NCBI RefSeq assembly: GCF_900108185.1
Contig: NZ_FNVA01000003.1
Span: 1 to 64,000 of the forward strand
Direction: 5' to 3'
Origin: Bryocella elongata
GTDB lineage: Bacteria; Acidobacteriota; Terriglobia; Terriglobales; Acidobacteriaceae
Length of the DNA stretch: 64,000 bases
How positions within the stretch are numbered: the first letter of the stretch is position 1; every line of letters starts with the position of its first letter. Shown here piece by piece: positions 57,811-60,312 of this stretch. The position numbers were made by a program, and so were the translations under genes. The notes beneath the pieces were generated by a model. It was not told the DNA's origin, did no database searches, and saw nothing but the letters and a program-made list of their open reading frames with translations.

Positions 57811-60312
57811 TTACGCGGTGCGGCGGTGCTTGGGAATGCCCTTCGCGCGTATCTCGAGGAAGCACTGAATCAGAGACACTGCCGCGGGCGTGACACCGGG
57901 GAGGCGGCTGGCCTGGCCCAGCGTCATCGGACGCACGCGGGTGAGCTTCTCCTGCATCTCGCGCGAGAGGCCACTGACGACGGTGTAGTCGAAGTCGGCG
58001 GGGATGGCGCGGGCCTCGTCGGCGAGCAGGCGGGCGATGCTGCGCTGCTGCTGGGCGAGGTAGCCGGCGAACTTGATGGTGGTCTCGACGCTCTTGAGCT
58101 CGTTGCGGACCCAGGCGGGCAGGTGGAGCGAGGGGCCAGGGGCCAAGGGCCAGGGTTCAGCGTGCGTGTTGGCAGCACGCAGCGCTTGCGACCAGACGGT
58201 TAGCTCGGGAGCGGCATCCAGGCGGCCAAGCAGAACGGGCAAAAGCTGCTCGATGGTGACCGCGGGGCGCTTGAGGACCTGGGAGAAGAGTTCGCCGCGT
58301 GCGAAGGGGTTGGCCTGGGGCTGGGCGTTTAAGGCTGAAAGGGTTTGGGCTGTTGCGGTGAGATCGGGAGCGTCGGGGTTCTTCGACTGCGCAGAATCGC
58401 CGAGCGATTCTGCTTCGCTCAGAATGACGGGCTTTGTTTCCGCGACGGGCATTGTTTCCGTCGTCGAGCTGGACAACGCCTGCACGTCAGCCTCGGTGAG
58501 ACGGGTGGTCTCGAGGAGCTTCTTCAGCGCTTCGAAGCGCTGCTGCTTGGCCTCGTAGGCGGCCCAGGCGGCATCGTCGATGAGGCCGAGGTCGCGGCCG
58601 TAGGGGGTGAGGCGCTGGTCGGCGTTGTCGATGCGGAGGTGCAGGCGAAACTCCGCGCGCGAGGTGAACATGCGGTAGGGCTCGTCGGTGCCCTTACTGA
58701 TGAGGTCGTCGATGAGGATGCCGGTGTAGGCCTCGGTGCGATTGAGGGTGAAAGAGGCAGGGATTAGGGGGTAGGGATTAGGGATTAGGGATTCCGTGGT
58801 GGCCACCGCAGTGTGCCCTTCGTCTTGAACCCGCTGTTCTAATCCCTGTTCCCTAATCCCTGATCCCTCGCTCTTCGCGCGAAGCGCGAAGAGCGCCGCG
58901 TTGATCCCGGCCATGAGGCCCTGGCAGGCTGCTTCTTCGTAGCCACTGGTTCCGTTGATCTGGCCGGCGAGGTAGAGGCCAGTGAACTTCTTCACGCGCA
59001 GGGTGCGATCGAGCTCGGTGGGGTCGATGGCGTCGTACTCGATGGCGTAGCCGGGGCGGAGCATCTCGGCGTTCTCCAGGCCGGGGATCGAGCGCACCAT
59101 GGCGGACTGCACCTCCATGGGGAGCGAGGTGCTCATGCCGTTGATGTAGACCTCGTGCGTGTTGAGGCCTTCGGGCTCGAGGAAGAACTGGTGCGAGGCC
59201 TTGTCCGGGAAGCGCACGATCTTGTCTTCGATGGACGGGCAGTAGCGTGGGCCGATGCCTTCGATCTGGCCGGTGTACATGGGCGAACGGTGCACGTTCT
59301 CGCGGATGAGGCGCAGGGTCTCGGGCGTGGTGTGCGCGATGTGGCAGGAGATCTGGCGCAGGGGCGGCGTCCACTTCGTGGTCGCCGCCTGAGGGATTAG
59401 GGAATAGGGATTAGGGATTAGTCCCTGAGCCTCGTGATGGATCTCGGCCTCGATTGCAGGGTTGCCTTCTAATCCCTGTTCCCTAATCCCTAATCCCTCA
59501 CTCGTTAGAGCGGAGAGGCTTCGGAAGCTGAATGGTGTTGGGTCCGCGTCGCCGGGCTGCTCTTCGAACTTCGACCAGTCGATTGTGCGGCCGTCGAGAC
59601 GGGGGGGCGTGCCGGTCTTGAGGCGCGTCTCGCGCAGGCCGAGCTTCTTGAGGCTTTCACCGAGGAGGACCGAGGCGGGCTCGCCGGAGCGGCCGGCGGT
59701 GTACTGCTGCTCGCCGCAGTGGATGAGGCCGTTGAGGAAGGTGCCGGTGGTGACGATGACTGCGGCCGCGGATATTTTTCTGCCGTCACGGAGCAGCACG
59801 CCTTGGACACGAGGGATTAGGGGACAGGGATTAGGGATTAGGTCTTGCGGGGTGGCGTAGCCTTCGGCGCTGCCTGGATGATTTTCTGATCCCTGAAGCC
59901 TGATCCCTGAACCCTCGTCGTCGATCACCAGATCGATGACCTCGGCCTGCTTGATGAAGAGGTTGGGGATGCTCTCGAGCTTCTCGCGCATCTTCGTGCG
60001 GTAGAGGGCCTTGTCGCACTGGGCGCGGGGCGACCAGACGGCGGGGCCGCGCGAGGTGTTGAGGAGGCGGAACTGGATGCCGCAGGCGTCAGCGACCTCG
60101 CCCATGATGCCGCCGAGGGCATCGACCTCGCGCACGAGGTGGCCCTTAGCCACGCCGCCGATAGCGGGGTTGCAGGACATCTGGGCGATCAGGTCGAGGT
60201 TCAGCGTGAACAGCGCGGTGCGCAGGCCCATGCGGGCGGCCGCAGCTGCGGCCTCGCAACCGGCGTGTCCGGCACCGACGACGAGCACATCGAACTGTTC
60301 GGAAAAAGCCAT
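57811..60312 (-). CDS. mnmG: tRNA modification enzyme MnmG (GidA), with in-frame repeat insertions
   Basis: FAD-dependent partner of MnmE making cmnm5U34 in t[15 protein letters not shown] binds [44 protein letters not shown] and [16 protein letters not shown] are hallmark blocks. It has 833 residues against about 630 usual. The excess lies in loops, at about residues 133-168, 271-308, 482-518 and 629-646. The first three read [17 protein letters not shown] peptides encoded by GGGATTAGGG inverted repeats. The fourth ([16 protein letters not shown]) comes from a GTCATCC-type repeat. Catalytic blocks are intact, so it should be functional. TACACT lies 7 bases before the ATG. Confidence 0.95.
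58375..58428 (-). repeat. GTCATCC-family repeat inserted in mnmG
   Basis: On the minus strand the unit starts GTCATTCTGAGCGAAGCAG, has a central palindrome (AGAATCGC/GCGATTCT) and ends CGCAGTCGAAGAACCCC. The same family occurs between genes at 11850-11893. Here it is read in frame within mnmG. Confidence 0.8.
58759..58868. repeat. GGGATTAGGG palindromic element 1 in mnmG
   Basis: About 110 bp. The left arm consists of GGGATTAGG units and the right arm of CCTAATCCC units, around a roughly 45-bp centre with GGTGGCCACC. Read in frame in mnmG. Confidence 0.85.
59391..59500. repeat. GGGATTAGGG palindromic element 2 in mnmG
   Basis: About 110 bp with 31-base arms that match well in inverted orientation (GAGGGATTAGGGA at both ends). 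The centre is unrelated to those of the other two elements. Read in frame in mnmG. Confidence 0.87.
59811..59916. repeat. GGGATTAGGG palindromic element 3 in mnmG
   Basis: About 106 bp. The left arm starts CGAGGGATTAGGGGACAGGG, and the right arm is a more diverged CTGATCCCTGA form ending CCCTCG. Read in frame in mnmG. Confidence 0.82.

Follow-up and report, generated by a model that had tools for sequence, protein, structure and literature searches.

What are the repeated sequences that lie within the mnmG gene (alias gidA) of Bryocella elongata, and where could they have come from? In the window, that is, the whole 64,000-nucleotide stretch analysed here, this gene forms an uninterrupted 833-aa frame encoding a complete MnmG, with Pfam matches to GIDA (537 bits) and to both of two C-terminal MnmG domains, and its five enlarged loops are all read through without a stop. 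Aligned to Escherichia coli MnmG, the protein shows breaks between residues 132 and 168, 264 and 319, 476 and 524, and 652 and 739. The AlphaFold model (mean pLDDT 80.9, pTM 0.84) was matched by Foldseek to MnmG structures with target TM values of 0.86–0.91, and residues with pLDDT below 50 fall at 141–163, 275–282, 504–512, 621–650 and 720–727. From this model, the MnmG fold looks retained and a large part of the inserts appears disordered. These results agree with a preliminary description of the locus in which every catalytic block was described as intact: the conserved MnmG residues are present, the inserts are modelled with low confidence as loops while the MnmG fold itself stays intact, and the frame bears none of the frameshifts that would betray a dead gene. 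The insert peptides are presumably produced, and functionless.

Most of the inserts are built from one heptamer repeat (table 1). Indeed, CCCTAATCCCT occurs in 15 copies in the window at one mismatch or fewer, versus 0.54 expected, a number reached in none of 100 shuffles, and 13 of these copies fall within mnmG. The inverted elements had been described as three, of 106–110 bp; three were found, with lengths of 104–110 bp, and an extra single arm has to be added to them. RNA folding z-scores of the three elements, relative to dinucleotide shuffles, are −5.5, −7.9 and −4.3, and an Rfam scan of positions 57000–61000 of the window returned no match. The GTCATCC-family unit reported both within mnmG and between genes was recovered in both places (GTCATTCTGAGC at 58417–58428 on the minus strand; GTCATCCTGAGC, intergenic, at 11851 on the plus strand). 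A window search with this 12-mer alone, at two mismatches, gives 11 occurrences versus 8.3 expected, which is not above chance; the family is recognized because 12 copies with a longer common layout exist in 1.2 Mb of the genome, namely those at 58374–58430 and 11851 and ten more in contigs C7 and C4. This GTCATTC unit is a family separate from the heptamer arrays. Several of its copies display, by eye, conserved ends around a variable, still self-complementary inner stem.

Table 1. Repeat elements in mnmG and elsewhere in the window (positions of the window; arm strands in brackets).
Feature	Position	Strand	Description
mnmG (gidA)	57811..60312	-	833 aa, open frame, five enlarged loops
Inverted heptamer element, loop A (protein 135-163)	59812..59915, 104 bp		arms 59812-59836 (+), 59891-59915 (-)
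Inverted heptamer element, loop B (protein 266-318)	59392..59498, 107 bp		arms 59392-59416 (+), 59474-59498 (-)
Inverted heptamer element, loop C (protein 480-518)	58759..58868, 110 bp		arms 58759-58790 (+), 58844-58868 (-)
GTCATTC-type hairpin, loop D (protein 605-664)	58374..58430	-	family apart from heptamers; fold z -2.2
Lone heptamer arm, loop E (protein 716-737)	58131..58155	+	overlooked in the preliminary description
Lone heptamer arm, intergenic (codon-usage gene model)	15313..15337	-	TTCAGAAGGC next on same strand; overlooked in the preliminary description
GTCATCC-type unit, intergenic	11851..11890	+	

The arm itself is a period-7 array, about (AGGGNNN)4 followed by AGAARRC, which occurs singly or as a convergent pair with 20–117 nt between the two arrays; such a pair around a short spacer constitutes a hairpin element of roughly 75–170 bp. 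Once duplicate loci (L142–L145, L157) and arrays of more than seven units had been left out, the inner unit AGA[AG] ended 40 of 75 arms, versus 0.6% per genome position. The same unit ends 10 of the 15 AGGG-type arms that flank the IVP genes considered below, and 11 of the 24 mnmG arms. Counting against this, just 10 of these 24 seem to end in AGAA-type units on the side of the minus arms too, and 13 do not. The AGA-ended pattern AGGGNNNAGGGNNNAGGGNNNAGA matches 53 sites in the B. elongata genome versus one for the reversed pattern. This control is cleaner than that of an earlier search lacking the AGA end, whose weakness was that (AGGGANN)n matches the reversed pattern as well. The AGA-ended pattern was detected in 76 of the 399 genomes of the class, mostly in this family and in some members of others.

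With gene calls from our codon-usage model, 19 of the 32 arrays in a sample of the B. elongata genome (1.2 of 5.67 Mb, 86% coding) lie in coding sequences, seven of them in mnmG. Around the arms of four related genomes (G006, G017, G018 and G032), 7 of 56 sightings, duplicate loci included, were in coding sequences and 49 outside, and many arms of these species are no more than about 20 nt away from the end of a gene. Arms within a pair are no more alike than arms across pairs (p = 0.08 and 0.29); covariation of the arms as a sign of a selected hairpin was rejected, not being significant. A uniform reading phase, which by our own reading holds for 13 of 13 four-unit plus-strand arms in genes, was also dropped and is not claimed, since minus-strand arms use more than one phase and the loops are not independent. 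As to strand, all 50 heptamer matches among those listed for C1 of G007 (0.24–1.33 Mb) are on the minus strand, GC skew being negative there in 6 of 7 sampled pieces, and in contigs C4 and C6 of B. elongata too the G-rich arms are carried by the G-rich strand, unlike in Xanthomonas.

To place the inserts among relatives, MnmG sequences were taken from the B. elongata genome, 29 other genomes, the genome of L124 and 34 of 80 named loci, 65 of them entering a tree; near relatives among the named records are Granulicella and unclassified Acidobacteria. Within the genus, each of the five loops may be empty or may hold octamers, heptamers of various units, GTCATCC units, or palindromes of the GTCATCTCGACCG, GGGGCTWWAGCCCC or GGGGCACCC type, and in several species the loops are minimal; the other family of the order (f2) has a short loop B and a short loop C. 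Considering five loops in each of 22 genomes of the genus (three of the sequences, L041, L044 and L047, being partial and their missing loops scored as not enlarged), 68 of 110 loops are enlarged by at least 8 aa. A recognized repeat family, often different between species, is present in 39 of the 68 and absent from 29, and unit-blind periodicity gives period 7 in 22 of the 68 and lags of 5, 8 and 12 in one each. Heptamers occur 19 times in loops A, B, C and E, for which 16 changes are required on a quick MnmG tree computed without loops, on which 7 of 23 inner branches are strongly supported and change counts are blind to gain versus loss. When the units in mnmG were compared with genome profiles, the own genome ranked first in three of five species and second in the other two; as the units resemble the family of their own genome, gain from resident copies is favoured. 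The palindrome family GGGGCTTCAGCCCC, also seen in MnmG loops of relatives, lies on both sides of a Y1 RAYT-like transposase gene of B. elongata at L085:15797–16252 (C7:495797–496252).

The alignment with relatives proposed at the outset thereby gave differing repeats or none across the 22 genomes, and no insert was found conserved in every relative. Judged by sequence, the inserts in mnmG represent a resident repeat copied in frame rather than ancestral protein loops. A genome search inside other ORFs, equally proposed, retrieved arms in frame within several housekeeping genes (PriA, UvrA, PurL, TGT), and also in a prolyl oligopeptidase, a MacB-like protein and a large fusion protein; the inserts of TGT, UvrA and PriA coincide with gaps in alignments to solved structures. 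PriA carries arms at 3 of 21 readable loci (24 loci, three without a readable frame), and PolA of relatives at 7 of 26 (28 loci, two without a readable frame, G033 counted twice). Loops of the same housekeeping proteins are thereby filled again and again by unrelated repeat families.

Two close relatives, G002 and G032, which are 87–98% identical in aligned stretches, give an indication of how the arms evolve. One intergenic pair common to both is identical. At one site in PriA, the two species agree in 15 of 16 AGGG bases and differ in 9 of 12 variable ones, the priA genes being 93.2% identical over 2544 bases; in element S7 both arms have changed type with much of the spacer kept, and in element S5 a CCCTAAT-type arm stands opposite a CTCTA-type arm. 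The stretch upstream of mnmG contains a heptamer pair in G032 and a GTCATCC element in G002, and sites S3 and S4 differ in presence between the two. S4 provides no clean empty site because G002 still has degenerate 7-mers there (by eye); these comparisons revealed no target duplication, no clean empty site and no movement. The alignments show arms that, from their sequences, turn over in place in this one close species pair, and the repeats are presumably mobile. A nine-unit arm, mostly of CTGAGCC, was noted at L356:4879–4938 of G032, the orthologous G002 arm consisting of four CCCTAAT-type units.

At S4, the arms of G032 enclose an ORF of 116 aa that matches PF05635 (23S_rRNA_IVP, S23). A relative of its product, XCC0516 (2GSC, E 4e-22), comes from Xanthomonas campestris, the species in which G-rich heptamers were described (Rehm et al. 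2015, PMC4692102). In total, 19 of 28 genomes gave 55 PF05635 matches. Of the 30 genus IVP loci examined (out of the 55 places), 22 are bracketed on both sides by convergent complementary arrays of 7- or 8-mers, with units varying by locus, and 8 are not, at a cut-off of 18/28 on both flanks and 15/20 complementary that was loosened after a stricter first look; at the first cut-off (20/28), 10 of 30 loci passed on both flanks versus 0 of 294 controls. Outside the genus, 9 of 17 IVP loci have such bracketing arrays and 8 do not, these loci comprising 16 of 30 matching plasmid records (without H5, H8, H11, H16, H20 and H22–H30) and one IMG/VR locus. Those that pass are from two Nostoc, Calothrix, Anabaena, Geminocystis, Picosynechococcus (8-mers), Gemmatirosa (8-mers), Azospirillum and the IMG/VR contig.

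As a control, with flanks measured from gene ends rather than from the domain match used for the 30 genus IVP loci, only 1 of 930 gene models of the B. elongata genome passes, itself an IVP gene, the set including those IVP genes that fall within the sampled stretches, where four of the seven places in this genome are located; near two cyanobacterial cases, 0 of 65 control coding sequences pass. These results show that convergent 7-/8-mer arrays associate with S23/IVP genes. Over the 28 genomes, and uncorrected for phylogeny, heptamer number is correlated with IVP number (rho 0.74), with Y1 transposase genes (0.51) and with genome size (0.49); G034, with 56 heptamer matches and no IVP match, counts against the S23 link. 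Elements in which convergent arms bracket an S23 gene measure about 450 bp. On contig C6 of B. elongata, an IVP gene is flanked by two different arms, one of three mnmG-type units at 210717 and one of four units of another type at 211163–211187, and an IVP element lies between two neighbouring genes, which we take to be rpoA and rplQ, in both G032 (L354:4357–6477) and B. elongata (L404). The mnmG inserts hold no S23-family ORF. Phage records gave no IVP match and IMG/VR one IVP relative. On the cyanobacterial plasmids L394, L395 and L401, S23 genes are found between CRISPR genes (cas6 and cas4; cas10 and a cmr3-type gene), with 7- or 8-mer arrays nearby.

Other origins of the repeats have to be weighed. 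The arrays might be simple sequence repeats grown by slippage, aided by G-quadruplex stalling, with the S23 link as a by-product; the four G-runs typical of an arm, the run of nine CTGAGCC units in G032 and the tracking of the G-rich strand by G-rich arms in the stretches examined would all fit. However, arrays bracketing S23 genes often have no G-runs (AGGAAAC or AGAGATT units), for which reason the G-quadruplex was rejected as a common feature, and slippage yields neither convergent pairs nor an exchange of 9 of 12 variable bases in which AGGG is retained, and we consider this origin unlikely. It is very unlikely that the elements are of REP type and owe their movement to a RAYT (Y1) transposase, even though their single and convergent forms and their position at gene ends recall REPs and Y1 genes correlate with heptamer number. 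Y1 genes are found in 26 of 28 genomes, including genomes without a heptamer match (G003, G035, G036), and the one inspected among the three of B. elongata is flanked by palindromes of another family rather than by heptamers; RAYT was rejected as mover on these grounds.

The repeated use of identical loop positions could also suggest ancestral MnmG loops, repetitive by chance and retained for protein function, but their sequence, length and repeat family vary by species, minimal loops exist, and the same insert peptides are seen in unrelated proteins, which makes this origin extremely improbable. As for an assembly error or a dead gene, repeats are prone to misassembly, but comparable inserts occur in independent assemblies, including the single-contig G007 and the few-contig G006 and G031, and the 833 open codons with their conserved residues speak against a dead gene; the probability of either is close to negligible.

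We therefore regard the mnmG inserts as probably being in-frame copies of a resident inverted-heptamer element, an ORF-less kin of the S23 elements that is disordered when translated. The short inverted pairs would be ORF-less relatives of S23 elements, from which they may derive, and 23S rRNA intervening sequences, hairpins in which an S23 ORF may be present, would offer a precedent for the ORF-less form. Copies are often located close to a gene end, at about 20 nt or less; those reaching a tolerant loop with the frame kept and no stops could survive as a disordered peptide, and arms at a fixed site might later be replaced by different versions of the unit from the same genome. Being related to the diversity-generating retroelement (DGR) protein Avd, S23 may help to copy or rewrite the arms, such templated copying being conceivable because PF05635 resembles Avd and the arms are rewritten in place. 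Much more tentatively, in a reading that we consider less likely than not, bacterial heptamer repeats could form the termini of a minimal but widespread mobile system with S23 as its sole protein; the Avd-like S23 would help to copy hairpin arms in place between sites, leading to rewritten arms, to convergent pairs and to the spread of ORF-less copies into gene ends and protein loops. If so, heptamer repeats, for which, as for S23 proteins, no known function was met in the literature examined, would gain a protein partner, S23 proteins a habitat outside rRNA, and the spread of intervening sequences would become testable.

The elements were initially compared with Rickettsia palindromic elements, repeats of about 150 bp in ten families (review PMC10969869). 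The likeness stands for the phenomenon, palindromic repeats being found between and inside ORFs, in frame and in unrelated genes, and not for the family: by the description given of the Rickettsia repeats, sequence and architecture appear to be different, and the available part of that review makes no mention of tandem heptamers or S23. The elements are instead convergent heptamer arrays of the Xanthomonas/Nostoc kind; arrays of this sort also bracket S23/IVP genes. As far as the accessible text of Rehm et al. 2015 (PMC4692102) tells, the G-rich heptamers of Xanthomonas and Nostoc form period-7 arrays, often of four units, with convergent pairs and positions near gene ends; they have no leading/lagging preference, and slippage and G-quadruplexes are discussed for them. 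The mnmG-type arms are likewise tandem, G-rich, mostly of four units and also in convergent pairs, whereas 7–11% of the Xanthomonas/Nostoc repeats are intragenic, unlike the arrays of the B. elongata sample; around the arms of G006, G017, G018 and G032, most sightings are outside coding sequences.

Translated repeats have also been reported as intragenic GTAG/CGTC REPs, single or as dimers, in DNA-repair (uvrA, polA) and tRNA-modification genes (Di Nocera et al. 2013, PMC3733652, as available in part). The gene classes hit here (repair, tRNA modification) match those of that study and the elements are again single or paired, although the REPs are quite different repeats, tagged short palindromes unlike heptamer arrays. 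The Coxiella 23S rRNA intervening sequence, in the portion of PMC4990558 at hand, is a 428-nt hairpin element with inverted-repeat ends and an S23-family ORF, already considered a mobility factor by authors on such sequences; the long form described here similarly has inverted repeats around an S23 ORF, but lies in protein-gene surroundings and within coding sequences, with tandem heptamer arms. DGRs overwrite their target in place from a template, and Avd, required for retrohoming, is related to PF05635/2GSC (PMC10053308, partial text); the likeness consists of this relatedness and of arms replaced in place.

The S23 link is absent from the available parts of Rehm et al. 2015 and from the other heptamer paper checked; searches mainly outside subscription journals, little aimed at S23, found no work tying heptamer arrays to S23 genes, and in the same kind of journals no description of heptamer arrays inside acidobacterial proteins was found. 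Heptamers with convergent pairs, translated palindromes, translated REPs in repair and tRNA genes and S23 intervening sequences are already known; the new observation is the tie between bracketing 7-/8-mer arrays and S23/IVP genes, across several bacterial phyla.
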